IMG/VR virus record: IMGVR_UViG_3300020463_000019
Span: 1-64,000 of that record
Strand: one strand, 5' to 3'
Origin: a virus
DNA: 64,000 bases
A model generated the notes under the pieces. It was not told the DNA's origin. It saw only the letters and a list, made by a program, of their open reading frames with translations, and searched no databases. The position numbers and the translations under genes are program-made. Below are positions 41,501 to 64,000 of the stretch, one piece after another. The stretch's first letter is position 1, and each line of letters opens with the position of its first letter.

Positions 41501-41512
41501 AGAAAGTATAAT
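41484..41512 (+). promoter_or_regulatory. Perfect consensus sigma70 promoter before the RuBisCO-like gene
   Basis: TTGACA (41484-41489) and TATAAT (41507-41512) are both perfect and 17 bases apart. The -35 box lies in the end of the cupin gene. The predicted start of transcription falls at 41518-41519, on the start codon of the RuBisCO-like gene, so the transcript would be leaderless or nearly so. Confidence 0.65.
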
Positions 41513-41517
41513 AAAGT

Positions 41518-45886: not shown

Positions 45887-47028
45887 ATATTGGATGGCTT
45901 GGATTAGGCAAGTTAGGTATGCCTTGTGCAGAAGTTATAGCAGACAAAGGGCATAGTGTATTTGGATATGATGTAGAACCAGTAAAGAGTAAAAAGGTTA
46001 CAGTCGTAGATCATCCTAGTAGAGCAGTACGTGATATGGATTTTGTTTTTGTTGCAGTACAAACTCCACATGATCCACTATACGGTGGAGAACAACCAAT
46101 TACACATTTACCAAACAAAGACTTTGGACTCGACAGTGTTAAAGAAGTATTAAGTACTATTGATGCATATGCAACAAAAGATACTATTGTTGTATTGATT
46201 AGTACAGTATTACCTGGCACTACTAGGCGTGAGTTTGCAAATTTAATTACCAAAGGTAGACTGATTTACAATCCATACTTAATTGCAATGGGTACAGTAG
46301 AATGGGATATGGTTAATCCAGATATGGTTATTGTTGGTGGTGAAAAGCCTAATGATACTGATGCTAAAAAATTAATAAAATTTTATAAAACTATAATGGA
46401 AAATGATCCACACTATAACATTGGTACTTGGGAAGAAGGTGAAGCAACAAAAATATTCTACAATACATTTATCAGTGCAAGACTTAGTTTGGTTAATATG
46501 ATACAAGACGTTGCACAACGTACAGGTAATATGAATGTTGATGTAGTAACAAACAGTTTATCAAATGCAGGCAAACGTATTACAAGTGCCGCATATATGA
46601 AAGCAGGAATGGGTGATGGTGGCCCATGTCATCCTAGAGATAATATAGCATTAAGATGGTTAGCAGATAGATTAGATTTAGGATATAATTTATTTGATGC
46701 TATTGCACATAGTAGAGAAGTACAAGCAAAGCACTTGGCTACAGAACTATTAAAGCATAGTCCTCGTATTGCATTAACAAGTACAAGTTACAAAGATAGT
46801 GTAGAAATTGAAACAGGAAGTTATGCACTATTAGTTGCACATTATGTAAAAGAACAAGGTGGACTGATTGTTGATATTGATAATATGGCAGGAGTCATAC
46901 TTCGCGTACATGAAAAAGATAAATTCAAAACAAAAGACTTTGACATTGTAGTAGATCCATGGCGTACATATAAATCAACAAACCCAACAGTAAAGGTTAT
47001 ACACTATGGTAATACTAGACAAGTATGA
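45883..47028 (+). CDS. UDP-sugar 6-dehydrogenase family protein
   Basis: A 381-residue member of the UDP-glucose/GDP-mannose dehydrogenase family, which oxidises the C6 hydroxyl of an NDP-sugar to a carboxylate in two NAD-dependent steps. The N terminus has GWLGLGKLGMP (NAD site); VVLISTVLPGTTRREF fits the conserved STVxPGT segment, and GMGDGGPCHPRDN holds the catalytic Cys near residue 249 (family pattern GGxCFPKD). It is shorter than typical enzymes (about 430 residues), mainly at the C-terminal nucleotide domain. The ATGA overlap ties it to the putative transferase upstream. Confidence 0.85.
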   Translation: MNIGWLGLGKLGMPCAEVIADKGHSVFGYDVEPVKSKKVTVVDHPSRAVRDMDFVFVAVQTPHDPLYGGEQPITHLPNKDFGLDSVKEVLSTIDAYATKDTIVVLISTVLPGTTRREFANLITKGRLIYNPYLIAMGTVEWDMVNPDMVIVGGEKPNDTDAKKLIKFYKTIMENDPHYNIGTWEEGEATKIFYNTFISARLSLVNMIQDVAQRTGNMNVDVVTNSLSNAGKRITSAAYMKAGMGDGGPCHPRDNIALRWLADRLDLGYNLFDAIAHSREVQAKHLATELLKHSPRIALTSTSYKDSVEIETGSYALLVAHYVKEQGGLIVDIDNMAGVILRVHEKDKFKTKDFDIVVDPWRTYKSTNPTVKVIHYGNTRQV

Positions 47029-47524
47029 GTACGAACCATTAACATTCACACCCACCTGGGATGATGAATTTAAAAAATTTCCTTACAAGAGACAACCGTT
47101 TGGTGATTTTGATCAGTTAGCAAAATGGCATAGATTAGGATTTACACATAAAAACTTTACAGGTGAAATGTGTCCTGATCAAAGTATTACACCAGAATGG
47201 GCAAAAAATATTGGTAAGGTTCTTGCCTGGAAGGATTGTGGTTATACTTTCTATCGTATGCAAGTTGGTGATATACTTCCGCCACATGCAGATCATTTTA
47301 ACAAGTACAAGGAACTATTTCATATTGCAGACAGTGAAGATGTAATGCGTTGTATAGTTTTCTTGGAGGATAAAAAACCAGGACACATGAGTGAGTTTCA
47401 AGGACTAGGCGTAGGTGATTGGCACCGAGGAGATGCAATTGCTTGGAGAGGAACTGTAGAACACAGTGCATTGAATATAGGATATGAACCAAGATACACA
47501 TTACAAATTACTGGACATGCTTGA
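47006..47524 (+). CDS. Fe(II)/2-oxoglutarate-dependent oxygenase-like protein
   Basis: A 172-residue double-stranded beta-helix protein. DILPPHADHFNKY supplies the HxD pair, and VEHSALNIGYEPRYTLQI supplies the distal His and the Arg that would bind 2-oxoglutarate. DWHRGDAIAWRG is the usual turn before the second His. This is the layout of small asparaginyl/aspartyl-hydroxylase-type oxygenases common in phages. It overlaps its neighbours by 23 and 8 bases. It could hydroxylate a sugar, an amino acid side chain or a peptide. Confidence 0.7.
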   Translation: MVILDKYEYEPLTFTPTWDDEFKKFPYKRQPFGDFDQLAKWHRLGFTHKNFTGEMCPDQSITPEWAKNIGKVLAWKDCGYTFYRMQVGDILPPHADHFNKYKELFHIADSEDVMRCIVFLEDKKPGHMSEFQGLGVGDWHRGDAIAWRGTVEHSALNIGYEPRYTLQITGHA

Positions 47525-48215
47525 GTATGATGAACTTGATATATTAAAACGCATGGGTTATACATGGAATGACCCGTACGATATTATATACAAGTTTGAA
47601 GATGCATTGTCTGAATATACTAAAGCACCTTATGTTGTGACAACAGATTGTTGTACACATGCAATGGAGTTATGTTTTCGTTGGCTGGCTTATAATAATC
47701 AAATGCCAGCACAGGTAACAATACCTGAACATACATATCTTAGTGTTCCAATGATGTTAGCCAAACTTGATATTAAATTTAATTTTACACAAAATAATTG
47801 GTTAGGCGAATATCAATTAAGTGGTAGTCCTATATGGGATAGTGCAAGGTTATTAGCAGAAGGTATGTATAAACTACCTGGCTACTATCAATGTTTAAGT
47901 TTTGGAATAGGAAAACCATTGACAATTGGTCGCGGAGGTGCTATACTATTAGATAGTAAAGAAGCCTATGAATGGCTTAGTCGTGCAAGAAGCGACGGTA
48001 GAGATTTAAAAATAAAACCATGGAACAATCAAACATTTGATTTCATTGGTTATCATTATAATATGACAGTAGAACAAGCCGCAAAAGGTTTAATCATGTT
48101 GGATACATATGAAACTAACTTTGACTTCTTTGAAGACCCAATGTTACTATATCCAAATTTAAGTGAATGCGTAGGTGAAATAAATGATCATACAGACACA
48201 CAACGAATGGGATAA
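47517..48215 (+). CDS. DegT/DnrJ/EryC1-type aminotransferase, short
   Basis: A 232-residue PLP enzyme candidate for adding an amino group to a keto sugar. TTDCCTHAMELCFRWL resembles the SCT-HALEL phosphate-binding segment, IPEHTYLSVPMM the PxxTF segment, Asp108 in WDSARLLAEG contacts the PLP ring, and Lys133 in SFGIGKPLTIGRGGAIL is the Schiff-base lysine. GYHYNMTVEQAAKGLIMLD fits the GxNxRM-EQAA helix. Usual length is about 370 residues, so the C-terminal domain is largely missing. ATG at 47517 was chosen; 47484 would add 11 residues and a longer overlap. Confidence 0.75.
   Translation: MLEYDELDILKRMGYTWNDPYDIIYKFEDALSEYTKAPYVVTTDCCTHAMELCFRWLAYNNQMPAQVTIPEHTYLSVPMMLAKLDIKFNFTQNNWLGEYQLSGSPIWDSARLLAEGMYKLPGYYQCLSFGIGKPLTIGRGGAILLDSKEAYEWLSRARSDGRDLKIKPWNNQTFDFIGYHYNMTVEQAAKGLIMLDTYETNFDFFEDPMLLYPNLSECVGEINDHTDTQRMG
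47919..47947 (+). promoter_or_regulatory. Possible internal sigma70 promoter
   Basis: TTGACA and TATACT are separated by 17 bases inside the aminotransferase gene. If active it would drive the amidinotransferase and carbamoyltransferase genes, beginning about 235 bases downstream. It overlaps coding sequence for the PLP lysine region, so a chance match is quite possible. Confidence 0.3.
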
Positions 48216-49191
48216 ACTAAACAGTATCGTATTAGGAGATGTTGCAGGAGCAAGGTTTCCAAAATATGATGATGTGTTTACTCGAGTAGCCAAAGGAAGT
48301 TCTTGGACTGAAACTGCACAACCTGTAGGTCCTATTAGCCAAGTAGTTATAGAAGAAACTAAAGTAGAATTAGACTTTATGAAACAAACACTTGAACAAG
48401 CAGGTGTTACTGTATACCGTCCAAGGCAATTAGACTTTCAGCAAGTTGTGCATGGTTATAGATACTTCAGTGATGGTATGTATAATTATTGTCCACGAGA
48501 TGTAATATTAATTATAGGCAACTATGTAATTGAAACTCCTTGCTTATTTCATAGTAGACAACATGAAGGTGAAGCATACCGAGATATACGCTACAGTGGA
48601 TTAGAACAAGGTTGTAAATGGATCAGTGCTCCTCAGCATAACTTACCTGCTCATGAAGTATTTGATGCTGATGGTAACCTAACTGAAAAGACCCCAATCT
48701 TTGATGCGGCTAATGTAATGCGTTTTGGAAAAGATATATTATATTTAAAAAGTCAAACAGGGAATGCCGCTGGTGCTAGATGGCTTAGTACAGTACTAGG
48801 ATCTGAATATACTGTACATGTATGGGATAAAGTATATGCATACGCACATATTGACAGTACTATTTCCGCACTCAATGAAGAAACTATTTTACTTAACAAA
48901 CCAAGAATTAAAACTGCTGGGCAACTTCCTAAGTTTCTTAGACAGAAAAAGAAAATATGGCTGAGCGAAATTGAGCATACTGACTTCCATGTTTATCCTT
49001 ATGCAAGTAAATGGATTGGAATGAATGTGCTTAGTATTAATCCAACTACTGTGATGGTAGATCCAAGACAAACATCATTAATCAAAAGATTAGAAAAAGA
49101 AAAGTTTGATATTGCACCAGTGCAACTAACACATAGTAGAACACTTGGTGGTGGACATCATTGTTGTACATTAGACTTACACAGAGGATAA
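48184..49191 (+). CDS. Amidinotransferase (glycine/inosamine amidinotransferase family)
   Basis: A 335-residue enzyme expected to move an amidino group, typically from arginine, to an amine. The triad-type positions are visible: FDAANVMRFGKDILYLKSQ with Asp174, AHIDSTISALN with His222, and TLGGGHHCCTLDLHR with Cys327, matching the GGGFHCWT active-site turn of the family. Length is slightly below human AGAT (about 385). In bacteria the family includes StrB1, which makes the guanidino groups of streptomycin. It overlaps the aminotransferase gene by 32 bases, so the amine it acts on may be made by its neighbour. Confidence 0.85.
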   Translation: MIIQTHNEWDKLNSIVLGDVAGARFPKYDDVFTRVAKGSSWTETAQPVGPISQVVIEETKVELDFMKQTLEQAGVTVYRPRQLDFQQVVHGYRYFSDGMYNYCPRDVILIIGNYVIETPCLFHSRQHEGEAYRDIRYSGLEQGCKWISAPQHNLPAHEVFDADGNLTEKTPIFDAANVMRFGKDILYLKSQTGNAAGARWLSTVLGSEYTVHVWDKVYAYAHIDSTISALNEETILLNKPRIKTAGQLPKFLRQKKKIWLSEIEHTDFHVYPYASKWIGMNVLSINPTTVMVDPRQTSLIKRLEKEKFDIAPVQLTHSRTLGGGHHCCTLDLHRG

Positions 49192-49192
49192 T

Positions 49193-50704
49193 ATGAGAGT
49201 ACTAGGAGTAAGTGCAGGCTTTCATGATGCAGGATTATCAGTTATTGCTGATGGCGAAATACTATTTGCAGGACATAGTGAAAGATATAGCAAACAAAAA
49301 CACGATCATCATTTATGTCCAGAAATTGTTACAAAGGCATTGGACTCTGTGTTTCCGTCTGAGATTGATGCTATTGCTTATTACGAAACACCATGGCTTA
49401 AAAAGACAAGAGAAATATATGCAGGGCAAGGCATTGAAGGCGGTGATAGAAGTAGCACATGGACTACTAAGGGTGCATTGAAAAAAGAGTTTGGAGACTT
49501 GTTACCTAACGCACCAGTGCATACATACCGGCATCATCATACACATGCCGCCGCTGGCTTTCAAACAAGTCCTTTCAAAGACGCAACAGTTGTTGTCATT
49601 GACGCTATAGGTGAATGGGAAACTATTACAATATGGTACGCATACTATGATAACAAAGGTCGTGCGTGTTATGAAAAGTTGTGGCGACAACGTTATCCAC
49701 ATAGTATTGGATTGTATTATAGTGCAATGACCGCACGACTTGGATTACGTCCACTTGATGAAGAATATATTATGATGGGTATGGCTGGTTGGGGTACTGC
49801 TAGTGGTTTAAATGAAAACTTGATTGAAAGTGAATTTGTACATGATATGGCAACACTACGTTTCAAACAAAATTTACACGCTGGCATTGACAAAAACTTT
49901 ATGATCAATATGAATGAATATGATATTGCCGCTAGAGCTCAGTATAGTGTTGAAAAAATGATAGACAATGTAATGTCAAGAGCAAGAGGCTTTAATAAAA
50001 GTCGTAACCTAGTTTATATGGGAGGAGTTGCACTTAACTGTTTATACAATCGCAAACTAGGAGACTTCTTTGACGATATATGGATTATGCCAAACCCTGG
50101 AGATTGTGGAAGTAGTTTAGGTGCCGCGGCACTTACATATGGCAAAAAAATTGAATGGGATAATCCTTACTTAGGAACATTCATATATGGACCTTATCCT
50201 ATCAGAGACTTGATAGATGAACTACAAACAAATAAAATTGTAGGAGTAGCAAACGGAAGAGCAGAGTTTGGACCAAGAGCGTTAGGCAATAGAAGTTTAC
50301 TAGCCGATCCACGGGGTCCTGAAATTAAAGATAAAGTAAACGAAATAAAACGTAGACAAAAGTTTAGACCGTTTGCTCCTATGATTCTCGAAGAGCATGT
50401 ACATGAATACTTTGACATGCCTGAGAAAACACCTACGTCGCCTTATATGCAAGTAGTTGCCAGATGTAAAAAGCCAGACGAGTTTCCTGCAATTATACAC
50501 GTTGACGGAACTAGCAGAGTACAAACAGTTGGCAAAGGTTGTTATGGCAGTGGTGTACGTTATTTACTAGAACAATGGTATGTGTTAACAGGTTGTCCTA
50601 TGTTGCTTAACACAAGTTTAAATATCAGAGGGGAGCCAATGGTTGATACAAGAGAAGATGCAGATAGATTTGAAAAAGAGTATGGAGTAAAAGTATGCAG
50701 TTAG
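49193..50704 (+). CDS. NodU/CmcH-family carbamoyltransferase
   Basis: A 503-residue enzyme that should transfer a carbamoyl group from carbamoyl phosphate to a hydroxyl. The start MRVLGVSAGFHDAGLSVI is the family's ATPase-like fold opening; AGHSERYSKQKHDHH and HHHTHAAAGF (residues 114-123) are the metal and adenylation-site motifs; VVVIDAIGEWET is a second nucleotide segment. GRAEFGPRALGNRSLLADPR and RPFAPMILEEH mark the C-terminal domain. NodU and the antibiotic enzymes CmcH and TobZ carbamoylate sugars. It begins one base after the amidinotransferase stop. Confidence 0.9.
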   Translation: MRVLGVSAGFHDAGLSVIADGEILFAGHSERYSKQKHDHHLCPEIVTKALDSVFPSEIDAIAYYETPWLKKTREIYAGQGIEGGDRSSTWTTKGALKKEFGDLLPNAPVHTYRHHHTHAAAGFQTSPFKDATVVVIDAIGEWETITIWYAYYDNKGRACYEKLWRQRYPHSIGLYYSAMTARLGLRPLDEEYIMMGMAGWGTASGLNENLIESEFVHDMATLRFKQNLHAGIDKNFMINMNEYDIAARAQYSVEKMIDNVMSRARGFNKSRNLVYMGGVALNCLYNRKLGDFFDDIWIMPNPGDCGSSLGAAALTYGKKIEWDNPYLGTFIYGPYPIRDLIDELQTNKIVGVANGRAEFGPRALGNRSLLADPRGPEIKDKVNEIKRRQKFRPFAPMILEEHVHEYFDMPEKTPTSPYMQVVARCKKPDEFPAIIHVDGTSRVQTVGKGCYGSGVRYLLEQWYVLTGCPMLLNTSLNIRGEPMVDTREDADRFEKEYGVKVCS

Positions 50705-50889: not shown

Positions 50890-51570
50890 ATGTTTGATAT
50901 TATTTTTATGAGCTACGAAGAGCCAAATGCTGAAGAGCATTGGCAAGCAGTTAAGGACAAGTACCCATGGACACAAAGAGTACATGGTGTAAAAGGTTTG
51001 GTTAATGCTCATAGAGAGTGTGCTAAACTAAGTCGTACTCAAATGTATTATCATATTGAAGCAGACAACGAACTAACTGAAGACTTCAATCCTAGTTTTA
51101 AACCTGGTGCATACGACAGAGACACAGTGCATGTATGGCGTGCTAGAAATAGTGTAAACAACTTAGTGTATGGTTACAGTGGAATCAAACTGTTTCCTAA
51201 AAAGAATGTACTAGCATTAGATCCTGATAAAGTTGTTGACTTTACAACAAGTGTTAGTGATAAATTTAAAGCAGTACAAATTGTAGGTAGTACAGTTCAC
51301 TATGATACTGACCCATACAATACTTGGAAGGCCGCATTTAGAGAGTGTGCTAAACTAAGTGCAAGGATTATTGATAGACAAAAAGACAAAGAAACAAGTG
51401 AACGTTTAAATACTTGGTGTACAGTTGGAGTAGGAGACTATGCCGACTACAGTATAGCTGGTGCAATTGATGGCTGTGATTATGGCAAATATGCTACACA
51501 AGATGATATGGTAAAGGTTAATGACTGGGAATGGCTGAGGAATAGATTTGACGAAACAACTAAAGGATAG
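50890..51570 (+). CDS. Glycosyltransferase-like protein, EPNAE family copy 2
   Basis: A 226-residue relative of the protein at 33418, sharing MSYEEPNAEEHW, TQRVHGVKGLVNAHRECA and the central NSVNNLVYGYSGIKLFPKK (the other reads NVVNSLAYGNGGLKLWPKH). YYHIEADNELTEDF supplies a candidate acidic metal site. The C-terminal basic region of copy 1 is absent. Having one copy beside the sugar-modifying enzymes and one beside the fibre-proximal transferases suggests the two gene groups serve one process. Confidence 0.6.
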   Translation: MFDIIFMSYEEPNAEEHWQAVKDKYPWTQRVHGVKGLVNAHRECAKLSRTQMYYHIEADNELTEDFNPSFKPGAYDRDTVHVWRARNSVNNLVYGYSGIKLFPKKNVLALDPDKVVDFTTSVSDKFKAVQIVGSTVHYDTDPYNTWKAAFRECAKLSARIIDRQKDKETSERLNTWCTVGVGDYADYSIAGAIDGCDYGKYATQDDMVKVNDWEWLRNRFDETTKG

Positions 51571-52255
51571 TATAATCAGCGACCAGGATATGTTTACTCG
51601 TATGAGTTTATTTACTGGCAATAGTTCATTTGACGATTTACGCAAAACAATTGATAACACAGATGCAATACTCGATGATGCATTTAGCGTAGGACAATTA
51701 AAAAGCAAACGTTGGCTTATAGATAGTTTAATAGAAAGTGGCGGGTATGAACTTGGCACTGTTTTTCTATGTGCTGGATGGTATGCTACACTTGCTAGTA
51801 TGTTGTTTAACAGTATACTTTCAATACGGTGCATTAGAAGTTTTGACATTGATCCTAATTGTGCTACTATTGCCGAAACAGTTAATAGGAGTCAAGTGTT
51901 AAATAGTTGGCAGTTCAAAGCAACAACTGCGGATATAATGAACCTGGAGTTTGACAACTACACATATAGTACACAACGAAGCGATGGTACTAGTGTAGAA
52001 CTATGTGAAAGTGCAGATACTATTATAAACACAAGTTGTGAACATATACCAAACTTCAAAGAATGGTACGATAGAATCCCGTATGATAAGTTGGTTATAT
52101 TACAAAGTAACAACTACTCTGAGTTACCTGAACATGTAAATTCAAGTAACAGTTTAGAAGAGTTTGTAGATAGTGTTCCACTAATAGACACATGGTACAA
52201 AGGTGAACTAGAGTTAAGTAAGTATACGAGGTATATGGTAATTGGAATTAGATAA
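51548..52255 (+). CDS. Methyltransferase-like protein
   Basis: A 235-residue protein with a weak class I methyltransferase pattern: LGTVFLCAGWYATLASMLF in place of the glycine-rich loop, IRSFDIDPNCATIAETVN with the acidic residue that holds SAM ribose, and ADTIINTSCEHIPNFKEWYD as motif IV. Start is uncertain: TTG at 51548 overlaps the previous stop by 23 bases, while ATG at 51590 lacks overlap but would drop 14 residues. O-methylation of a sugar would fit the operon, but no acceptor site can be read. Confidence 0.55.
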   Translation: MTKQLKDSIISDQDMFTRMSLFTGNSSFDDLRKTIDNTDAILDDAFSVGQLKSKRWLIDSLIESGGYELGTVFLCAGWYATLASMLFNSILSIRCIRSFDIDPNCATIAETVNRSQVLNSWQFKATTADIMNLEFDNYTYSTQRSDGTSVELCESADTIINTSCEHIPNFKEWYDRIPYDKLVILQSNNYSELPEHVNSSNSLEEFVDSVPLIDTWYKGELELSKYTRYMVIGIR

Positions 52256-52466
52256 ACTATCACTGCGTGAACAACAAAAAGAATGTGCTAGAGCCTTAGC
52301 ATCTATGAGTGCTACCAACAACAATATTCATCAATTCAACAAACAAGCACATCACAATAGTCACAACTGGTATTCTGCAGTCATTAACTGGTATGTAGAA
52401 CAGTATGGCGACTTACCCTCAAAGACTGGACCAGGACAAGAAGTTAAGTTAATCTTGGACAACTAA
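52242..52466 (+). CDS. Hypothetical protein, 74 residues
   Basis: Starts at TTG overlapping the preceding stop by 14 bases. The helical N terminus (LSLREQQKECARALASMSAT) leads to a His/Asn/Trp-rich middle (NNIHQFNKQAHHNSHNWYSA). No family recognised. Its last base is the first of the next ATG, so it is coupled to the radical SAM array and could be a small partner or substrate for it. Confidence 0.5.
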   Translation: MELDKLSLREQQKECARALASMSATNNNIHQFNKQAHHNSHNWYSAVINWYVEQYGDLPSKTGPGQEVKLILDN

Positions 52467-53392
52467 TGATTAATAGTATTACTACTGACGTTCCGAGCAG
52501 TTTAGATATTGAATGGGTAATCAACAATTACTGCAATTTTAATTGTAGTTATTGCACTCCTGACTTATTTGGTAACACTAGTAGAGCATTAGATTTACCT
52601 ATAGCAGTTGAGTTTTTTAACACAGTACATCAACAACATCCAGGAATAAAAATGCTAAGTCTCAGTGGAGGAGAACCTACACTGTGGAAGCATCTACCTG
52701 AGTTTGTTGATAGTGTAGCAAGTAACTACTTCTTTCATATTATTACCAACGGTAGTAGAACGCTTGACTGGTGGCGTAGATTCATGTATAAAAGAAAGAT
52801 AGACAGGATAACAATAAGTTTACATGTAGAGCAAATTAATTTTGATAAAACATTTGCCAATATAGAATTTTTACAAAACCAAACAGACTTAACTTTATTA
52901 GTATTACTAAAGCCTGGGTCAAAGGAAATACTAGAACAATTTGTAAAACGTATAACTGATGCAAAAATAAATGCAAGTATAAAAATAAAACCATTAACCT
53001 CGCATGATAATAGAAGTGTGTACAACTACAACAAAGACGAAAAATCATGGTTACAACACTTTAGTTACAACAAAGCAAACATAAATTCCTATAGTGGTAT
53101 TGCTAAAAGACTTATAGTTGATGGCAAAGAGCATAGCATGAGTTATGCTTACAAACTAGTTGCAGGTGGATTAAATAACTTTAGAGGTTGGAACTGTAAC
53201 TTAGGAAGTAGCCGAATGTTTATTTGGCACGATGGAAATGTGTTTCCTGCTACATGTAAAACTGCTATGGCAAGACCGATTGGCAATGTTTTTTCTAATA
53301 CGTTAGAAGTTAAAACATCAAGTACAAGATGTGCTGATGAGTTTTGTCATTGTGCACCTGATATTAGGATTACAAAAAGTAGAAATGTATAA
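52466..53392 (+). CDS. Radical SAM enzyme, array copy 2 (compact form)
   Basis: A 308-residue enzyme with VINNYCNFNCSYCTPDLFG (CxxxCxxC near residue 23) and KMLSLSGGEPTLWKHL (GGE). The barrel continues with FFHIITNGSRTLDWW and RITISLHVEQINFDKTF. The C-terminal 60 residues contain cysteines (WNCNLGSSRMFIWHD, FPATCKTAMARP, CADEFCHCAPD) in a SPASM-like auxiliary cluster arrangement. It lacks the long N-terminal module of the other forms. First member of the continuous array; overlaps the next gene by eight bases. Confidence 0.85.
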   Translation: MINSITTDVPSSLDIEWVINNYCNFNCSYCTPDLFGNTSRALDLPIAVEFFNTVHQQHPGIKMLSLSGGEPTLWKHLPEFVDSVASNYFFHIITNGSRTLDWWRRFMYKRKIDRITISLHVEQINFDKTFANIEFLQNQTDLTLLVLLKPGSKEILEQFVKRITDAKINASIKIKPLTSHDNRSVYNYNKDEKSWLQHFSYNKANINSYSGIAKRLIVDGKEHSMSYAYKLVAGGLNNFRGWNCNLGSSRMFIWHDGNVFPATCKTAMARPIGNVFSNTLEVKTSSTRCADEFCHCAPDIRITKSRNV

Positions 53393-54464
53393 ACTAGAAG
53401 ACATAAAGCAAATACATTTAGAAGTGACACAGAAGTGTCAGGCCGCGTGTCCTATGTGTGATCGCAATATGAATGGCAAAGGTATCAACCCGCATATTGA
53501 TTTGAGCGAACTTAGTTTAGAAGACTGCGAAAAAATGTTTCCGCCAGAGTTTATTGCACAACTAGATAGTATGTATATGTGTGGTAACTTAGGTGATCCT
53601 ATTATAGCAAAAGACTGTTTACAAATATTCCAATACTTTCGCAAACACAACAAAGACATGTGGTTGAGTATGAACACAAATGGTGGAGCACAAATACCAG
53701 CATGGTGGGCAGGACTTGCTAGTACTCTTAATCACAGAGGTGCAGTTATCTTTAGTGTTGACGGTTTAAAAGATACAAATCATATTTACAGACAAGGTGT
53801 AAGTTGGGACATAGTAGAACGTAGCATGAGAGCATTTGTAAAAGGTGGTGGTCGAGCAAGATGGGACTTCCTTATATTTGAACACAACCAACATCAAGTT
53901 GAACGAGCAAAAGCTCTTGCTATGGAGATTGGTTGCGAAAACTTTATTCCTAAGAAGACAGGAAGATTTGTTACTGCGACTACACAACCTAAAGAAGAAC
54001 ATGAAGGAAGCAATAGAAAAGGCACTGAGTCAATTGAGCTTAAGAAGCCTGACGATAAATATGTTAATAAAGCTCTTACTACTCAGCAAAAATTAATTGA
54101 AAAATACGGCGACATGGACAACTACTATGACGCAGTTCCTATTAAATGTAAAGTTGCAAGTTCAGGTAATCTTTTTATTACTGCTGAAGGCATGGCAATG
54201 CCGTGTTGTTGGACTGCTGGTCGTATGTATAAGTGGTGGCATAAAGATCCTAGAGTCGAACAGATATGGAACTTCATAGATGCACATGGAGGCAAACAAG
54301 GTTTAAGTGTAATTGAAAATGGACTACCTGCAGTATTTGACTCGGGTATATTTGACAGTATAAATGATAGTTGGAACAAAACAAGTTGTGCCGATGGCAA
54401 GTTAAAAGTATGTGCTATGAAGTGCGGTATTGAGTGGGATCCTTTTACGGAGCAATTTAAGTGA
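53385..54464 (+). CDS. Radical SAM/SPASM-like enzyme, array copy 3 (short form)
   Basis: A 359-residue enzyme. The ATG at 53385 sits inside the preceding stop region (ATGTATAA); a longer reading from 53331 adds only a hydrophobic leader and is rejected. HLEVTQKCQAACPMCDRNM carries CxxxCxxC near residue 18. The middle has MWLSMNTNGG, IFSVDGLKDTNHIYRQGVSW and RARWDFLIFEHNQHQVE, and the end has CKVASSGNLFITAEGMAMPC with CC and CAMKC as an auxiliary cluster. The proteins at 58655 and 59757 follow the same plan. Confidence 0.85.
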   Translation: MYKLEDIKQIHLEVTQKCQAACPMCDRNMNGKGINPHIDLSELSLEDCEKMFPPEFIAQLDSMYMCGNLGDPIIAKDCLQIFQYFRKHNKDMWLSMNTNGGAQIPAWWAGLASTLNHRGAVIFSVDGLKDTNHIYRQGVSWDIVERSMRAFVKGGGRARWDFLIFEHNQHQVERAKALAMEIGCENFIPKKTGRFVTATTQPKEEHEGSNRKGTESIELKKPDDKYVNKALTTQQKLIEKYGDMDNYYDAVPIKCKVASSGNLFITAEGMAMPCCWTAGRMYKWWHKDPRVEQIWNFIDAHGGKQGLSVIENGLPAVFDSGIFDSINDSWNKTSCADGKLKVCAMKCGIEWDPFTEQFK

Positions 54465-55891
54465 TAAACAAAACTGAAGACAAAGATCGTTACAATGATA
54501 TCAGCGAAACATTCTGTGCTTTGCCATGGTTACATTTAAGTAGTAGACCAGATGGCAAGATGCGTACTTGTTGTACTAGTAATGCAAGTAGTGTACAAGA
54601 TCCAGACAGTAGTAAAAAAGTAGGTGGTGGAGAAGTTGGTGTTGTAAAGAACAATGATGGCGTGCCTGCTAACTTTAATCACACAAGTTTAGAAGATGCT
54701 TGGAATAGTGACTACATGAAGAATGTACGCAAGATGATGTTGCGTGGAGAAAAGCCAGCACCTTGTCTAAAATGCTATAAGGAAGAAGAAGCAGGACATC
54801 TAAGCAAACGTAATTGGGAAACAAACTATTGGGGTAATAGATATAACTTACACAACTTAGTAGAAGAAACAGACATTACAGGAAAGATACCACCAAAGAT
54901 ACGTTACATTGATCTGCGTATGGGAAGTAAGTGTCAACTAGCATGTGTCATGTGTAGTCCACATGATAGCACAGGATGGATTAAAGAATGGAATAAAATC
55001 TATCCGCAAATAACAAATGAAAAATTAAAAAATACAAGTGCTTGGGATAACAAAGGTCGTAATGATGGTGCAAGTTATAATTGGCACAAAAACAATCCTA
55101 AGTTTTGGAGTGACTTGTACGAACAGATTCCGCACATGTATCAATTGTATTTTGCTGGTGGTGAAAGTTTAATCATTGATGAACACTATGACTTGTTAGA
55201 AGAATGTATTAAAAATGGCTACGCAAAGAACATTGAGTTGCGTTACAATAGTAATGCAGTTGAATGGCGTGATGACTTGTTTGACTTGTGGGCAGAATTT
55301 AAACGTGTGAGATTCCACTACAGTATAGACGCACATGGAGAACACAATGACTATATACGCTACCCAACAGATTGGAAACATCAAGAAGAAGTATTCTGGA
55401 AGTTGGACAATACTAGTGACAATGTAGAAGTAACAACCGCTACAACTATTATGGCACTCAACGTTGGATACATTCCAGAGTTTGTGCAATGGAAAGTAGC
55501 ACAGAACTTTCGTAAGATAAACAAATGGCCGTTAGGAGCAGGAGGTATTAACATGCATTTTGCTTACTGGCCACCTCAGTTAAATGTTAAAGTATTGCCG
55601 GCTGAAGTAAAACAAACTATAACAGACAAGTACGAACAAGAGTTCATACCTTGGATGATGGATAACTGGCAAAGTTTTACAGGAGTCAAAGAAGCAGGAC
55701 TAACACAAGAACAATGGCTAAGTGCTCCATACGGAGTAAAAAGATTTCGTGGCATTATCAAGTTTATGAATGCAGAAGACTGGACACAACGTTTACCAGA
55801 AACAAGACAGTACTTAAACCTAGTAAACAAACAACGTGGATGGGAAACAAAGTTTCTTGAAGTCTTTCCGTTGTTCAAGGAAGTGCTATGA
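54461..55891 (+). CDS. Radical SAM enzyme with N-terminal Cys module, array copy 4
   Basis: A 476-residue enzyme with a GTG start in a four-base overlap. The N-terminal module reads FCALPWLHLSSRPDGKMRTC followed by CTS, then PCLKCYKEEEAGHLSKRNWE. The barrel motif is LRMGSKCQLACVMCSPHDST (CxxxCxxC near residue 155-162), followed by LYFAGGESLIIDEHYDLLEE (GGE). RFHYSIDAHGEHNDYIRYPT is a conserved later segment shared with the proteins at 55888 and 57228. This form resembles the twitch/SPASM-related proteins found in many marine T4-like genomes. Substrate unknown. Confidence 0.85.
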   Translation: MINKTEDKDRYNDISETFCALPWLHLSSRPDGKMRTCCTSNASSVQDPDSSKKVGGGEVGVVKNNDGVPANFNHTSLEDAWNSDYMKNVRKMMLRGEKPAPCLKCYKEEEAGHLSKRNWETNYWGNRYNLHNLVEETDITGKIPPKIRYIDLRMGSKCQLACVMCSPHDSTGWIKEWNKIYPQITNEKLKNTSAWDNKGRNDGASYNWHKNNPKFWSDLYEQIPHMYQLYFAGGESLIIDEHYDLLEECIKNGYAKNIELRYNSNAVEWRDDLFDLWAEFKRVRFHYSIDAHGEHNDYIRYPTDWKHQEEVFWKLDNTSDNVEVTTATTIMALNVGYIPEFVQWKVAQNFRKINKWPLGAGGINMHFAYWPPQLNVKVLPAEVKQTITDKYEQEFIPWMMDNWQSFTGVKEAGLTQEQWLSAPYGVKRFRGIIKFMNAEDWTQRLPETRQYLNLVNKQRGWETKFLEVFPLFKEVL

Positions 55892-57231
55892 CAGAACTAA
55901 ACATGGATAGGTTTTGTGTTGTTCCTTTTGTGCAGTTAAACACAAGAGGCAAAGGTGATGCACGAGTATGTTGTAGTATCGATGGATTAAACTATGGCGT
56001 ACCAAAACATTTAACACTTGATCAAGTTAATCCAGATACATACAACGGCAAAGACACAGAAGTATATAACCTACAACATGATGATATATCAGACTTATGG
56101 AACAGTGACTTTATGCGAGACTTCCGACAAAAGATGTTGGCAGGTGAATATATACCCAACTGTGAGTTTTGTTACAGAATGGAAAACAGTGGACTTAGTA
56201 GTAAGCGACTAGGCAAGAACAAAATATTCTTAGAGCGAACACTTCCGTTCTTACAAGACTATGCAAACGCTAACGGACATGTTGACAAAATGCCACAGTG
56301 GTGGGAGATACGTTTAAGTACCAAGTGTAACCTAAGTTGTATTATGTGTGCTCCAAGTTTGAGTACTATGATGTATAAAGAATATGCAAAGTGGCGTAAG
56401 GATGGAACAGGAAGTCAATACACAAATGGAGCATTGGCTATTGCAGAAGACAGTGGCGAAGAGTTTTTAAGTAAGAGTGAGTTCTTTCGTGATCAAGTTA
56501 CAAGTAATCTGCAACATGTTTTATACATGGAGTTTAGAGGTGGTGAAGTATTTGCAGACAAAGAAAGCATAGACTTTATTGAAGCAGTAAGTTATACAGA
56601 ATATGCCGCAGGCATTACGCTAGATATCTCAACAAACGCTACACTAATTAATAAAAGAGTAGTAGACATACTTAATAGATTCAAAGGTGGTAAACTAAGA
56701 CTTAGTATTGATGCGTACAAAGAAGCAGATGAATGGATACGCTATCATACAGACTGGAATGCAGTAATTAGAAGTATGGAAATAATGCATGGCTTACACA
56801 ACAAGTGGAAGTTCCTAACACAAACAACAGTACAATTTTTAAACTGCTTAACATTAGATGAACTAGTAGTGTTCTTTAATGATTACATTATGGAACAACG
56901 AGACGAAAGATTCTTTTTAGGATTTACAAGTGTAAGAGGTAAAGACTGGTTACGACATGAGATGGTACCTAATAGTATTCGTGAACCAGCAGTACAACGC
57001 ATGAAAGAACTAAAACGCACATTACCTATATTCCAAACCAATTGGAAAAATTCAGAACAACTTAACAAAGCAATGGATCAACTTATAAGTGTATTAAGCG
57101 ATACAGAATATACAGAAGAAGCAAAAGTAGAACTTGCACCTAAAGCAAGAAACTTTTTTGAAACACTAACTAGAGTTCGAAAGAAAGATTACTTCGAACA
57201 GTTTCCACACATTAATCAGAGTATAGCATGA
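55888..57231 (+). CDS. Radical SAM enzyme with N-terminal Cys module, array copy 5
   Basis: A 447-residue paralogue. FCVVPFVQLNTRGKGDARVC and CEFCYRMENSGLSSKRLGKN form the N-terminal cysteine module. IRLSTKCNLSCIMCAPSLST carries CxxxCxxC near residue 150; the usual GGE is GGEV in MEFRGGEVFADKES. LRLSIDAYKEADEWIRYHTD corresponds to the late segment in copy 4. Overlaps both neighbours by four bases, indicating coupled translation. Confidence 0.85.
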   Translation: MTELNMDRFCVVPFVQLNTRGKGDARVCCSIDGLNYGVPKHLTLDQVNPDTYNGKDTEVYNLQHDDISDLWNSDFMRDFRQKMLAGEYIPNCEFCYRMENSGLSSKRLGKNKIFLERTLPFLQDYANANGHVDKMPQWWEIRLSTKCNLSCIMCAPSLSTMMYKEYAKWRKDGTGSQYTNGALAIAEDSGEEFLSKSEFFRDQVTSNLQHVLYMEFRGGEVFADKESIDFIEAVSYTEYAAGITLDISTNATLINKRVVDILNRFKGGKLRLSIDAYKEADEWIRYHTDWNAVIRSMEIMHGLHNKWKFLTQTTVQFLNCLTLDELVVFFNDYIMEQRDERFFLGFTSVRGKDWLRHEMVPNSIREPAVQRMKELKRTLPIFQTNWKNSEQLNKAMDQLISVLSDTEYTEEAKVELAPKARNFFETLTRVRKKDYFEQFPHINQSIA

Positions 57232-58655
57232 CTGAAGTAGATCATACCAAACACACCCGATGTCCTATACCATGGATGAGTCAAAGTTATAGAGCCAACG
57301 GAGACATTAGAGTATGTTGTCAAGCACAACATGGACCTACTGGCGGTATACTTAAATCACCAGAAGGTAAAGTATTGAATGCTCGTGACAGTGACTTAAA
57401 TGAAATACGCAACGCACCACTAGAGAAAGACATCCGAAGTTCGATGATACGTGGCGAGAAACATGTAGAGTGTACACGTTGTTGGACTGAAGAAGATGCT
57501 GGTATGACTAGTAGACGTATCATAGAAAATAAACTATGGACCAAGGGCGGTTGGGATCAACTGCGTGAAGAAGACAAGTATACCTGGGACGAGTTAATGA
57601 GTTATACACAAGAAGACGGAACCATAGATACAGATGCTATTGGCAACAACTTCTTTGATGTACGCTTTGGAAACTTGTGTAATCTAAAGTGTAGAATGTG
57701 CGGTCCAACTGACAGTAGTATGTGGTATGACGAACAAGTTAAACTATGGGGCAACACATACAAAGACAGTCACGGTACTGTTACACTTGTACCTAATGCT
57801 AAAGGCAAACATGTACCTGAAGTAAATGTTTATGACTGGCATGAAAGTAAACACTATTGGACACAAATGGAATGCATGATTCCTAATATCCGTAAGTTGT
57901 ATATTGTAGGTGGTGAACCATTTATGATTGATCAACACTATGCGTTTTTGCAAAAGTGTGTAGATGGTGGCTATGCTAAAAATATCATTGTAGAGTACAA
58001 CAGTAATGTAACAAACATTCCACAACGTGCTTGGGACATATGGAAACATTTTAAACGCATAGGCATTGGTGCTAGTATAGATGCAGTAGGAGACTTAAAC
58101 TATTACATACGTCCACCAAGTAGATTTGAAAAGATATGGAGCAACCTTAAAAAACTAAGTGCCGCTGAAGGTAACTTTAGAATGTGGTTGGCTACAACTA
58201 TTAACATATACAACGTTTGGGTACTACCAGACATTATGAAGTTCTACATTGAGAACAACATGCCTAGAGTAAATGATGATGACTTCAAACCTATTATGAC
58301 ACCACACCCATTACACGGGCCACAGTTCTTAAACATAAGAGCATTACCAAAGCCTATCAAAGATTTAATTGCTGACAAATACGAAAAGCAATTGCCACAG
58401 GTTTATGAAGTGATTGATCAACACATTCAAGATCCTAATAGAAATCATCACAGTAAAAGACAAGCAAAACTTATATTAGAAACATACAAAGACTTTATGT
58501 ATGCCAAAGACTTTTCAGATAAACTATACAAGTTCTGGGAACACACTAACAGACTAGATAAAATACGTGGACACTACTTCAAAGATTACTGTCCAGAAAT
58601 GTATGAGATGTTGTTAGAACATGCACACCCAGACTCTTGTAAGGCACCTTATTAA
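57228..58655 (+). CDS. Radical SAM enzyme with N-terminal Cys module, array copy 6
   Basis: A 475-residue paralogue. CPIPWMSQSYRANGDIRVCC and ECTRCWTEEDAGMTSRRIIE form the N-terminal module. VRFGNLCNLKCRMCGPTDSS carries CxxxCxxC near residue 150, and KLYIVGGEPFMIDQHYAFLQ carries GGE. GIGASIDAVGDLNYYIRPPS matches the late segment of copies 4 and 5. Its last base overlaps the next start (TAATG). Within the three long forms, the region between the cysteine module and barrel differs most, suggesting distinct substrates. Confidence 0.85.
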   Translation: MTEVDHTKHTRCPIPWMSQSYRANGDIRVCCQAQHGPTGGILKSPEGKVLNARDSDLNEIRNAPLEKDIRSSMIRGEKHVECTRCWTEEDAGMTSRRIIENKLWTKGGWDQLREEDKYTWDELMSYTQEDGTIDTDAIGNNFFDVRFGNLCNLKCRMCGPTDSSMWYDEQVKLWGNTYKDSHGTVTLVPNAKGKHVPEVNVYDWHESKHYWTQMECMIPNIRKLYIVGGEPFMIDQHYAFLQKCVDGGYAKNIIVEYNSNVTNIPQRAWDIWKHFKRIGIGASIDAVGDLNYYIRPPSRFEKIWSNLKKLSAAEGNFRMWLATTINIYNVWVLPDIMKFYIENNMPRVNDDDFKPIMTPHPLHGPQFLNIRALPKPIKDLIADKYEKQLPQVYEVIDQHIQDPNRNHHSKRQAKLILETYKDFMYAKDFSDKLYKFWEHTNRLDKIRGHYFKDYCPEMYEMLLEHAHPDSCKAPY

Positions 58656-59776
58656 TGCACTATCTCAAGCCGGAAGAAATAAAATATCTACAAGTAGATC
58701 ACAACAGTGGTTGTAACCTACGTTGCCCACAGTGTGCTAGAACACACAACGGTGCTACTATACCTGGCTTGAAAAATGTAGATCTAACAGTGGATCACTA
58801 CAAAGACTTCATTATACACACCCCTAACTTGAATTTTATTATGTTCTGCGGTAACTATGGCGAAGTTGTTGTTAGCAAGACCTTTTTAGAATGCCTACAA
58901 TATGTAGTAGAAAATACCACTGCAAAGATAGTAATAGCCACTAACAGTAGTGCCAGAGATGAAAGTTGGTGGAAAGAGCTCGGTCTAATGCTAAAGGGTA
59001 GAGGAAAAGTTAACTTTAGTATAGACGGATTGAGCGATACAAATCACTTGTATCGTGTGAACGCAGACTTTGATAAATGTCTGCGTAACGCACAAGCGTT
59101 TATAGATGCAGGAGGGATAGCACGTTGGGATTACTTGGTATTTGCACACAACGAACACCAAGTAGACGGTGCAGTAGAACTAGCAAAGACTATGGGTTTC
59201 AAAGACTTTGCAGTCAAACTCACAAACCGTTTTGTCAACGACGAACAATATAGGCATAAGAAGGCAGCAAGTGAAAGTAGTAAAGTGGTAACACGAAAGA
59301 GTAGTTACACACTAAGCATGGCAAGTGATGCCAAGTATACTGCCAGTGGAGTAGATGATAATACCAATATCATCAACAAGTACGGCAGTTGGAACAACTA
59401 TGTGAATGCTACCCCTATTAGTTGTAAGTGGCGACCCGGAGGGCAAATATTCTTAGACTTTGAAAACAGAGTATGGCCTTGTACTTGGACTGCCAGTGGA
59501 TACTTGCATCACGGAGACAACACACAAAAGACACAAGCACTACAGTTGTTTGAACGCTACGGAGAAGACTTCAATTGTTTAGACAACAAAAGCCTACCTG
59601 AAGTACTTGAACATTCATACTTTGCCCGAGACTTTTGTGCTAGTTGGAGTAGCACTATGACAGATGCTGTTCCTAAGTTGTTTGCTTGTGGAAGAACCTG
59701 TGGCACAGACTACAACTTCTCTAGTGCTCATGGTGCTAACAGAAGGATACTAGAACTTGACAAACTGGCACATTAA
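58655..59776 (+). CDS. Radical SAM/SPASM-like enzyme, array copy 7 (short form)
   Basis: A 373-residue relative of copy 3. VDHNSGCNLRCPQCARTHNG gives CxxxCxxC near residue 20. VNFSIDGLSDTNHLYRVNAD and ARWDYLVFAHNEHQVDGAVE repeat the central motifs. The C-terminal cysteines (CKWRPGGQIFLDF, VWPCTWTASGYLH, CGRTCGTDYN) suggest an auxiliary cluster. It overlaps the next gene by 20 bases. Confidence 0.85.
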   Translation: MHYLKPEEIKYLQVDHNSGCNLRCPQCARTHNGATIPGLKNVDLTVDHYKDFIIHTPNLNFIMFCGNYGEVVVSKTFLECLQYVVENTTAKIVIATNSSARDESWWKELGLMLKGRGKVNFSIDGLSDTNHLYRVNADFDKCLRNAQAFIDAGGIARWDYLVFAHNEHQVDGAVELAKTMGFKDFAVKLTNRFVNDEQYRHKKAASESSKVVTRKSSYTLSMASDAKYTASGVDDNTNIINKYGSWNNYVNATPISCKWRPGGQIFLDFENRVWPCTWTASGYLHHGDNTQKTQALQLFERYGEDFNCLDNKSLPEVLEHSYFARDFCASWSSTMTDAVPKLFACGRTCGTDYNFSSAHGANRRILELDKLAH

Positions 59777-60851
59777 AGTCCTAGACCTAGAGCCTAGTAC
59801 ACAATGTAATGCGGCTTGCCCTATGTGTGCAAGAAGTTTTCAAGGTGTGCAGAACAAAAACGTGCCTGTTGCCAATCTTCGAGTGAGTGCATTACAAACA
59901 CTACGCCCATACTTAAACGAACTAGAACGACTGAGCATGTGTGGCAACTATGGAGACCCTATACTCAATCCACAGTTAACAGACATCATAGACTACTGTC
60001 TCAGTATAAACTCTAGTTGCAGTACTATCATACACACCAACGGTGGTGCTAGAACAGAGAGTTGGTGGCGAGAACTAGCAGAGTATCCTTGGCTTAAAGT
60101 AAGATTTGGCATAGATGGATTAGCAGATACAAATCACTTGTATAGACGCAAAGTGCGTTGGGATATACTAGAACGCAACTATAGAGCATTCATAGATGCT
60201 GGTGGTGTTGCTGAATGGAAGATGATAGTATTTGGTCACAATCAACATCAAGTAGAGGCATGCAGACAACGTGCAATTGATGAAGGATTCTCAAACTTCA
60301 GTTATGTTGTAACCAACAGATTTACACAAGGCAACAAGACAGTGTTTACCATGCACCCTGACGCAGACGATAGTACTCCACTAACAGCCGCAGACTTGGA
60401 CTTTGATCCAAGCAAGTTCTCTGCAAGTCATGCACAAAGGGTAAAAGGTGTTTACGACACAGGTGCATACTTGGAAGAAGGCAAACAACCACAAAGCCAC
60501 AAGCCTACAGCTATACCACAGAGAAAGTTTGCTTACACAGATAGTTGGCAACCTCAACAAAACAACATAAGTTGTTATACACAACAAGAAGGAATAGTGT
60601 ATGTAAGTGCGGCTGGTGACTTGTATCCTTGTTGTCATCTAGGCTATCCATATGGTGGACAAAACAAATATGATGATTTAGCATGGCTGGATAAGAAGAC
60701 TATTAACTTGTACAACAACAGTGCTGAACAAATCTTTGGTTGGTTTGATGAAGTAGAAAGACGCTGGAGTCAAAGCAACTGCTTGGGTACATGCACTAAG
60801 GTGTGCAGTACTGAAGGCAAACCCAATCTATATGCAGTGGAAGCCTTATAA
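59757..60851 (+). CDS. Radical SAM/SPASM-like enzyme, array copy 8 (short form)
   Basis: A 364-residue relative of copies 3 and 7, starting at TTG inside the end of the previous gene. LEPSTQCNAACPMCARSFQG gives CxxxCxxC near residue 17; VRFGIDGLADTNHLYRRKVR and AEWKMIVFGHNQHQVEACRQ repeat the central motifs. The end has ISCYTQQEGIVYVSAAGDLY then PCCHLGYP and CLGTCTKVC, an auxiliary-cluster-like set. Last gene of the continuous array. Confidence 0.85.
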   Translation: MTNWHIKVLDLEPSTQCNAACPMCARSFQGVQNKNVPVANLRVSALQTLRPYLNELERLSMCGNYGDPILNPQLTDIIDYCLSINSSCSTIIHTNGGARTESWWRELAEYPWLKVRFGIDGLADTNHLYRRKVRWDILERNYRAFIDAGGVAEWKMIVFGHNQHQVEACRQRAIDEGFSNFSYVVTNRFTQGNKTVFTMHPDADDSTPLTAADLDFDPSKFSASHAQRVKGVYDTGAYLEEGKQPQSHKPTAIPQRKFAYTDSWQPQQNNISCYTQQEGIVYVSAAGDLYPCCHLGYPYGGQNKYDDLAWLDKKTINLYNNSAEQIFGWFDEVERRWSQSNCLGTCTKVCSTEGKPNLYAVEAL

Positions 60852-62906: not shown

Positions 62907-63464
62907 ATGCAATATTTGATTGCTGGTAATCCTGCGTATGGATTATCTGCCGCCATTGCCGATCGCATAAGCACAGACCAATGGCACAGTAGAAGTTTCA
63001 ATGATGTAGATCTAACGAGCGTAGCGAGTCAAAAGCAGTTTGCAAACGATAGTCTACTAGTAGATGTAACCATAGTAGTAAGTTGCCTCTGGGGTTATGA
63101 ACAGGTTAAACTAGTAGAACGAGTAGCAAAGGCCTGGGCGGAACATCAGCACGATGGATATCTCGTAGTGCTAGGAAGTAGTGCCGATACTCCAGTTAAA
63201 GGAACTGCTTGGGGATACCCTGCAGAGAAGAAGGCCTTACGAGCATACTGTAGACAACTAAGCCAAATGAGTGCAGGCGAGAATTCACATAGATTCCGTT
63301 GTACATACCTCTCTCCGGGTAATATGCACACACCCAAACAGGATGAGAAAATGCCAGGTGTAGTTAAACTAAATACAGCGTATGTCGCAGATGTAATAGT
63401 CTGGTTGACAAATCAGCCAAAACATGTTAATATAAGTGAACTAACCCTGGACGCTATTCCTTGA
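62907..63464 (+). CDS. Mini short-chain dehydrogenase/reductase-like protein
   Basis: A 185-residue NAD(P)-binding protein. The N terminus YLIAGNPAYGLSAAIADRIS stands for the glycine-rich cofactor loop; VVSCLW fits the NNAG-type segment position; LVVLGSSAD supplies the Ser; YPAEKKALRAYCRQLS supplies the YxxxK pair; CTYLSPGNMHT is the PG motif after the active site. Usual SDRs have about 250 residues, so loops and the C-terminal helix are trimmed. It probably reduces or oxidises a small alcohol or keto sugar. Its stop overlaps the next TTG. Confidence 0.7.
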   Translation: MQYLIAGNPAYGLSAAIADRISTDQWHSRSFNDVDLTSVASQKQFANDSLLVDVTIVVSCLWGYEQVKLVERVAKAWAEHQHDGYLVVLGSSADTPVKGTAWGYPAEKKALRAYCRQLSQMSAGENSHRFRCTYLSPGNMHTPKQDEKMPGVVKLNTAYVADVIVWLTNQPKHVNISELTLDAIP

Positions 63465-64000
63465 CAACTGACAACTATCCAAGCAAGCCGTGTGCTGCTC
63501 CTCTAACCAGTGTAGCAATAAAGCCCAACGGCCGGCTTCGCCCCTGTTGTTGGTGGACAGATGATGTAGAACCCAGACTAGAAGATCGTGGTATAAAACA
63601 GTATATCTGGCAAGACCTCGCGGCTATGTATAAGAACATGGAAAAAGGCATATGGCCAAAAGGTTGTAACAAGTGTAATACCACACAAAAGAGTCGGTAC
63701 GATCACTATGAAAGACGCTATCCTAATGCCAGAAACGAACCTCAACGACTAAGAACAATGGACCTCCGCTTTGGTACACTGTGTAATGCCAGTTGTATTA
63801 CATGTAGTAGTACTAATTCAAACTATTTCTACAAAGTAAAACGGCAGGGTCTTTATCTAACACCCGAACATCAACCATTTGACAGCCAGGCCAAGATCGA
63901 TGCATATGAAGCAGAACAAGATTGGTGGAAAAAAGAACGTAATATCAATGACTTATTAGAGAACCTTGACACAGTGGATCACCTCTATATAACTGGTGGT
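63461..64000 (+). CDS. Radical SAM enzyme, copy 9, cut by window edge
   Basis: An open frame from TTG at 63461 (overlapping the preceding TGA as TTGA) to the window end, at least 180 residues. The N-terminal module has PCAAPLTSVAIKPNGRLRPC followed by CWW and later GCNKCN, and DLRFGTLCNASCITCSSTNS carries CxxxCxxC near residue 105-112. YITGG at the edge is the start of the GGE motif. It has the plan of the long forms at 54461-58655, with a shorter N-terminal module. A following gene cannot be judged. Confidence 0.8.
   Translation, partial: MTTDNYPSKPCAAPLTSVAIKPNGRLRPCCWWTDDVEPRLEDRGIKQYIWQDLAAMYKNMEKGIWPKGCNKCNTTQKSRYDHYERRYPNARNEPQRLRTMDLRFGTLCNASCITCSSTNSNYFYKVKRQGLYLTPEHQPFDSQAKIDAYEAEQDWWKKERNINDLLENLDTVDHLYITGG

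Follow-up and report, generated by a model that had tools for sequence, protein, structure and literature searches.

What does a phage do with seven consecutive genes for radical S-adenosylmethionine (rSAM) enzymes? Such a run lies at positions 52466-60851 of a window of 64,000 nucleotides, which comprises positions 1-64000 of the 66,292-bp IMG/VR virus record IMGVR_UViG_3300020463_000019; the rSAM genes of the window and the flanking genes from 31157 onward are on its plus strand. We favor, with about as much confidence as doubt, the view that this array supplies the enzymes of a variable island devoted to glycan tailoring, and that the island belongs to the host-recognition region of a jumbo T4-superfamily phage. 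The initial annotation had described a head-to-tail run with stop/start overlaps and nine rSAM genes in the window; the open reading frames confirmed both, and a PF04055 search brought the total to 11 for the whole record, so that nine was an understatement. R1 (43354-44709, 451 aa, motif CNFKCMYC) precedes the run, which is formed by R2 (52466-53392, 308 aa), R3 (53385-54464), R4 (54461-55891), R5 (55888-57231), R6 (57228-58655), R7 (58655-59776) and R8 (59757-60851). R9 (63461-64000) continues to record position 64621, and two more genes lie past the window end, one of the short type at record 64867-65988 and one of the compact type at 65981-66292, truncated where the contig stops. The most likely start of R3 is the ATG at 53385, within a longer open frame and 8 bp before the stop of the preceding gene. 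The overlap with the preceding gene is 4 bp for R4, R5 and R6, 1 bp for R7 and 20 bp for R8, and these stop/start overlaps suggest translational coupling along the run.

The array is neither accidental nor in decay. As first reported for the genes of the window, the CxxxCxxC motif is kept throughout: it is present in all eleven rSAM proteins of the record and intact in 589 of 590 relatives of at least 280 aa, the sole exception being cut by a contig start. Motifs broken in most copies elsewhere, which the initial annotation had named as an observation that would make the array less novel, were thus not found. The ratios of nonsynonymous to synonymous substitutions (dN/dS) against close relatives range from 0.04 to 0.20 for R2-R7, indicating purifying selection. 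Together with a gene order kept in many contigs, these data argue against a chance assembly, and the motif and dN/dS values led us to reject decaying genes. Recent tandem duplication was rejected as well, because the paralogues of the window are only 21-39% identical. The picture of a real, intact and unusual array of distinct paralogues without described function was therefore borne out.

NF033640 scores and alignments agree with the three architectures proposed earlier: compact, short SPASM-like, and long with an N-terminal cysteine module. In the long proteins (N-type; R1, R4, R5, R6 and R9), an N-terminal C-x17-C ... C-x2-C is invariant in a 30-sequence alignment, as are CxxxCxxC, GGE and single Asn, Ser and Arg residues. 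The 170-bit cut-off of NF033640, 'twitch domain-containing radical SAM protein' (N_Twi_rSAM), a name that refers to a domain and not to a function, is exceeded by R1 (329.5 bits), R4 (412.9 bits), R5 (281.9 bits) and R6 (362.8 bits), and is not reached by R2, R3, R7 and R8. R9, recovered by the PF04055 search, is a shorter N-type member whose four N-terminal cysteines are the same by alignment. The short, SPASM/twitch-like proteins (S-type; R3, R7, R8 and the product of 64867) have in common a set of C-terminal cysteines and the block IDGLxDTNHLYR; R7 (PF04055 E 2e-5, under the Pfam cut-off) and R8 (E 2e-8) were placed by family alignment. R2 (PF04055 E 4e-12) and the product of 65981 are compact (C-type). 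With their conserved cysteines, the N-type and S-type proteins could presumably each ligate a single auxiliary cluster completely, the arrangement known from twitch enzymes like BtrN. Membership of the radical SAM superfamily is supported by the motif in all eleven proteins, by the PF04055 matches and by the R4 model (predicted local distance difference test score, pLDDT, of 92), which matches rSAM structures with Z up to 11.8. R2 was also scored as a prokaryotic viperin (NF038283) and rejected (43.3 bits against a cut-off of 180 bits).

Which of these genes persist in other phages? IMG/VR holds at least 111 relatives of R4. We compared the 80 best loci; since these were fetched by R4, its presence is given by construction, and the linkage of the other genes is what informs. 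R3, found in 68 loci (40% single linkage), precedes R4 in almost all of the 80, L086 being an exception, and upstream of the pair there are usually a glycosyltransferase (GT)-like, a methyltransferase-like and a 74-aa gene. The conserved core thus consists of these three genes, R3 and R4. In the window, the GT-like gene (50890-51570) encodes a shorter homologue of the product of 33418-34353, with which it shares an alignment. It is followed by the gene for a putative class I methyltransferase-like protein (51548-52255), which has conserved Rossmann-type motifs and homologues in Pelagibacter phage Mosig and in Bdellovibrionota, and by the 74-aa gene (52242-52466), restricted to phages and represented by 52 family members.

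The 33418/50890 family carries no database name. The model of the 33418 product (pLDDT 91.9) has GT-A enzymes as its best matches (best E 5e-4; best Z 10.8 over ~140 residues); this protein is therefore a predicted glycosyltransferase of GT-A fold, as is, by homology, the 50890 product. In six loci (L022, L026, L030, L043, L048 and L060), GT-like domains reside within fused reading frames of 828-987 aa, some of which also match the methyltransferase-like query, suggesting that the two proteins act together.

Around this core the rSAM complement is fluid. The 536 distinct rSAM proteins of at least 280 aa in the collected loci fall into 136 single-linkage clusters at 40% identity, most of them rare; across phages R3 and R4 alone are nearly constant, and more than 100 other rSAM types come and go. 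Given these clusters, the low identity between paralogues and the dN/dS values, the sequences are best read as a pool of old, selected and exchangeable enzymes around the fixed pair R3/R4. Whole related records contain up to 25 PF04055 matches (in 77 kb), and another has 20 in 44 kb. The earlier idea that the paralogues modify successive positions on one target is compatible with these data but goes further than they do; types that come and go resemble interchangeable tailoring enzymes. One locus (L078:2803-5142) encodes a 780-aa fusion of a Gfo/Idh/MocA oxidoreductase domain to a radical SAM domain.

What, then, might the substrate be? The array had been described as having no evident substrate, which proved too pessimistic, the flanks being rich in sugar-modifying genes. 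Upstream lies a five-gene aminosugar cassette, composed of a UDP-glucose/GDP-mannose-type dehydrogenase (45883-47028; PF03721, PF00984), an Asp/Asn beta-hydroxylase-like oxygenase (47006-47524; PF05118 E 0.001, just under the cut-off), a short DegT/DnrJ/EryC1/StrS aminotransferase with the pyridoxal phosphate lysine motif SFGIGK (47484-48215; PF01041 E 2e-15), an amidinotransferase (48184-49191) and a NodU/TobZ-type carbamoyltransferase (49193-50704; PF16861 E 3e-51, PF02543 E 1e-38; NodU model). This order is kept in L013, L014, L069, L073 and L074, and in L076 without the dehydrogenase, at the locus edge; the amidinotransferase and the carbamoyltransferase each occur in 11 of 29 related records. 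The closest match of the amidinotransferase is StrB1 from the streptomycin pathway (1bwd; E 1.6e-79; 332 aligned residues, 42% of them identical), whereas AGAT, HsvA and SxtG reach no better than E 1.7e-40. Homology is full-length (residues 2-334) and the motifs FDAANV, H-(I/V)-D-S-T and GGG-x-H-C, with the catalytic Asp, His and Cys, are kept, so that an StrB1-like activity, of the inosamine-phosphate type, is predicted. GT-like genes at 31157-34353 directly follow the tail-fibre genes (33418 is the one with the modelled GT-A fold; 31157 weakly matches Mannosyl_trans3). Domain matches identify nucleotidyltransferase-like, cupin-like, RuBisCO-like and phosphomannomutase/HAD-like genes at 40052-43361, and a weakly matching SDR-like oxidoreductase (62907-63464; NCBIfam SDR models E 8e-5) is kept beside the array in relatives. 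The flanking cassette, the predicted GT-A partner and the Gfo/Idh/MocA-rSAM fusion point to sugars.

The position of the array fits a host-recognition island. The first 30 kb of the window hold tail and baseplate genes, encoding a hub/lysozyme, a PAAR protein, two wedge subunits (8358 and 8795), then a very large structural protein (a virion protein of 4323 aa) and tail-fibre-like proteins up to ~30 kb. From ~31 kb, on the same strand, come GT-like, SGNH-like and sugar-metabolism genes, then the rSAM genes, and relatives differ in the content of this block, as in the islands that follow the tail-fibre/baseplate genes of the T4 superfamily. In tblastn searches with the large wedge protein, the best-ranked matches were jumbo phages such as Phosso, Atu_ph07 and 121Q, mostly with more than 90% query coverage. 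A cyanophage or pelagiphage lineage was rejected at the nucleotide level, where there was no near match.

From this context we infer that a sugar is the rSAM substrate, as well as an order of steps and a place for the product. R3 and R4, with the core GT-like and methyltransferase-like proteins, would have one sugar or glycan as their shared substrate. Next, the variable rSAM enzymes would oxidise, epimerise or deoxygenate sugar carbons, as do BtrN, NeoN and AprD4, rSAM enzymes of aminoglycoside pathways, the class to which StrB1 belongs through streptomycin. The resulting ketones would be aminated by the DegT enzyme, then amidinated and carbamoylated, and the finished glycan would decorate the tail fibres of the phage or else the surface of the host, there altering recognition, blocking superinfection or evading defence. 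This glycan-tailoring model is the best supported of those considered, because the StrB1-like amidinotransferase, DegT aminotransferase, UDP-sugar dehydrogenase and carbamoyltransferase are co-located in a kept order, because the recurrent partner matches GT-A enzymes and the corresponding core in Bdellovibrionota adjoins glycosyltransferases, because relatives hold the Gfo/Idh/MocA-rSAM fusion and, in one case, a heptose-phosphate/glycerol-phosphate nucleotidyltransferase, and because the cultured phages Mosig and CP220 repeat the gene set and tail and baseplate genes precede the island. If it is right, phages would hold one of the densest uncharacterised rSAM collections known to us, with up to 25 genes in 77 kb.

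Several observations weigh against it. All curated function-level NCBIfam models score far below their cut-offs on the rSAM proteins, and by sequence no rSAM of the record can be assigned to a characterised sugar enzyme. The GT-A matches of the 33418 model form a consistent list with Z of 8-11, at low template-modelling scores (~0.3). Since only a fraction of the related contigs have the aminosugar cassette, it cannot account for the core R3/R4. Among the genes scanned in this record, itself a fragment, none was recognised as a cyclitol scaffold synthase or an inositol dehydrogenase. Finally, the R4 model fits the peptide maturases anSME, CteB, SkfB and SuiB no better than BlsE, DesII and viperin (Z ~11-12 for all); with sugar or nucleotide enzymes level with peptide maturases, the structure is uninformative as a substrate test, and the predicted fold does not separate glycan from peptide or protein modification.

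This last point bears on the next best supported explanation, which we judge unlikely though deserving attention: the rSAM enzymes would modify protein. Their targets would be polypeptides of the virion, those of the tail fibre included, or a short peptide, for which the 74-aa product of 52242 is an example; epimerisation, cross-linking or C-methylation would leave the fibres hardened or protected. Twitch and SPASM architectures are characteristic of peptide maturases, the R4 model fits such enzymes as well as any other, the best solved-structure sequence match of the profile is SkfB, Asp/Asn-hydroxylase-like oxygenases lie nearby, and in many loci the 74-aa gene keeps its place immediately before R3, which it often overlaps. 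However, in the 74-aa protein, which is strongly conserved (NkxAHHNSxxWYxAVIxWY...LPSxxGPG), conservation runs through the C-terminal half and there is no variable core, so that we consider it unlikely to be the precursor of a ribosomally synthesised and post-translationally modified peptide (RiPP); it matched nothing in databases, 50,697 phage records included, and is absent from the core module of Bdellovibrionota. It is also the only widely conserved small gene beside the array, where no precursor with a conserved leader and a variable core was found: the other small open reading frames of the window were unmatched in related loci, except 50695 in close relatives. Moreover, no curated RiPP maturase model came near its cut-off, and the flanking genes encode sugar enzymes.

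Synthesis by the island of a diffusible small molecule, similar to an aminoglycoside or a nucleoside and directed at the host or at competitors, appears improbable. The StrB1-like amidinotransferase, DegT aminotransferase, carbamoyltransferase and rSAM enzymes do resemble the tailoring part of aminoglycoside biosynthesis, although the rSAM proteins are not assigned to known carbohydrate rSAM families, and BlsE, of blasticidin synthesis, is among the structure and sequence matches. By contrast, the genes scanned include no recognisable enzyme for a cyclitol or nucleoside scaffold and none for export or resistance, and an attached glycan better fits the tail-fibre neighbourhood and the abundance of GT-like genes. 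More improbable still is a general auxiliary role, proposed earlier as a supplement to host metabolism or Fe-S capacity (PMC2853527, PMC5332604): in some phages, genes for Fe-S assembly accompany the rSAM genes (PMC5332604), but 136 rSAM clusters in variable combinations are unlike a fixed metabolic supplement, and what is fixed goes together with a GT-like gene. Modification of DNA bases or tRNA is the least probable, since R2, weakly similar to QueE, reaches 36.9 bits against the 260.1 bits needed for this enzyme of 7-deazaguanine DNA modification, and the genes follow tail and not replication genes, with no tRNA genes, although relatives hold QueC-like PP-loop proteins.

Phages with many rSAM genes were already known, from the studies of Timms et al. 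2010 (CP220/CPt10), Nishimura et al. 2017 (the TARA T4-like genome) and Zaragoza-Solas et al. 2020 (pelagimyophages). The initial annotation, which mentioned single proteins of this kind in marine T4-like genomes, was incomplete in that whole arrays have been reported (PMC2853527, PMC5332604, PMC7029224). Campylobacter phages CP220 and CPt10 (Firehammervirus) carry 11-12 rSAM genes, with interchangeable five-gene rSAM modules, each including an amidinotransferase (PMC2853527). We recovered 11 rSAM matches in CP220, and homologues of the short and compact types. These T4-like phages thus share with our record the clustering of rSAM and amidinotransferase genes and, in CP220, two nearby sugar-nucleotide transferase domains; they differ in that the region examined has no strong N-twitch match and no R3-R4 core, the rSAM genes are spread genome-wide and identities are only ~23-30%. 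The marine, 183-kb T4-like genome TARA_ERS488813_N000010 has 12 rSAM genes (PMC5332604), a likeness known from reported gene counts and Fe-S context only. Pelagimyophage host-recognition clusters carry rSAM cassettes together with glycosyltransferases proposed to modify the host O-chain (PMC7029224), and like ours form a variable island between tail genes. In one of them, that of Pelagibacter phage Mosig EXVC030M, we found rSAM, DegT-type aminotransferase, carbamoyltransferase and methyltransferase homologues between the tail-fibre genes and VrlC, but Mosig has two PF04055 matches versus 11 here, and no StrB1-like gene in the region viewed. We found no publication linking rSAM arrays with an aminosugar cassette, a conserved core or Bdellovibrionota, in a search that covered subscription journals and preprints poorly; the scale, the core, the glycan context and the Bdellovibrionota link appear to be new. 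With a conserved core (GT-like, methyltransferase-like, R3 and R4) and the cultured phages Mosig and CP220, the question of the substrate, open since 2010, would become testable if the glycan-tailoring model is right.

Where do R4-like proteins occur in cells? A profile scan of 84,980 species genomes placed them mostly in Bdellovibrionota, at ~52-58% identity to R4. The NF033640 cut-off was exceeded in 30 of 114 Bdellovibrionota genomes versus 3 of 120 Pseudomonadota genomes (Fisher P 7e-8); one of these 3 positives is phage DNA that had been mis-binned. In Bdellovibrionota, on contigs as long as 937 kb, the S-N-C rSAM trio recurs in the company of GT-like and methyltransferase-like genes, and Glycos_transf_2 (GT2) was detected in 14 of 89 proteins flanking the trio, beside housekeeping genes. 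Unlike the phage array, these arrays are chromosomal and without the wedge and 74-aa genes. Prophages were rejected, as those genomes contain no wedge homologue. The metagenome-assembled genomes Rickettsiales MED657 and Gammaproteobacteria MED685 (loci L128-L132, L125 and L111) do contain phage wedge genes, for which reason their contigs were treated as mis-binned phage DNA; L111, L125, L129, L130 and L132 may be so too. A quick tree, whose direction is deduced from a midpoint root, nests the phage R4 clade within Bdellovibrionota sequences, next to Bacteriovoracaceae/Halobacteriovoraceae. These data suggest gene flow with Bdellovibrionota and perhaps infection of these bacteria by such phages, a lead on the host or the gene source and not a proof of host. 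A broader scenario, to which we give limited credence, is that a group of marine jumbo phages and predatory Bdellovibrionota share a large, recombining pool of rSAM sugar enzymes, by which phage tails or host surfaces receive decorations that resemble aminoglycosides and differ between strains. Radical chemistry would then serve to diversify glycans, with predators of the Bdellovibrio-and-like-organism (BALO) type as possible host or gene source. If right, it would tie the host-recognition islands of phages to predatory bacteria and provide sugar chemistry that is new.

Some minor features were also observed. The RuBisCO-like protein (41518-42663; PF00016 E 2e-32), whose gene adjoins the cupin-like and phosphomannomutase-like genes, keeps the carbamate-lysine motif GGVDFIKEDE, and copies 82-83% identical occur in three related records (G002, G011 and G014). 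The baseplate wedge protein (8795-12346) ends in a C-terminal poly-glycine tail. Between the tail genes and the sugar cassette (36539-39719), SGNH-hydrolase-looking genes, of which 36539 matches DUF6071, flank a dihydroorotate-dehydrogenase-like gene (37498). Finally, five loci (L095, L097, L100, L103 and L059) encode several rSAM proteins of 500-730 aa with B12-binding or B12-binding-like N-terminal domains, one of which is weakly PhpK-like.

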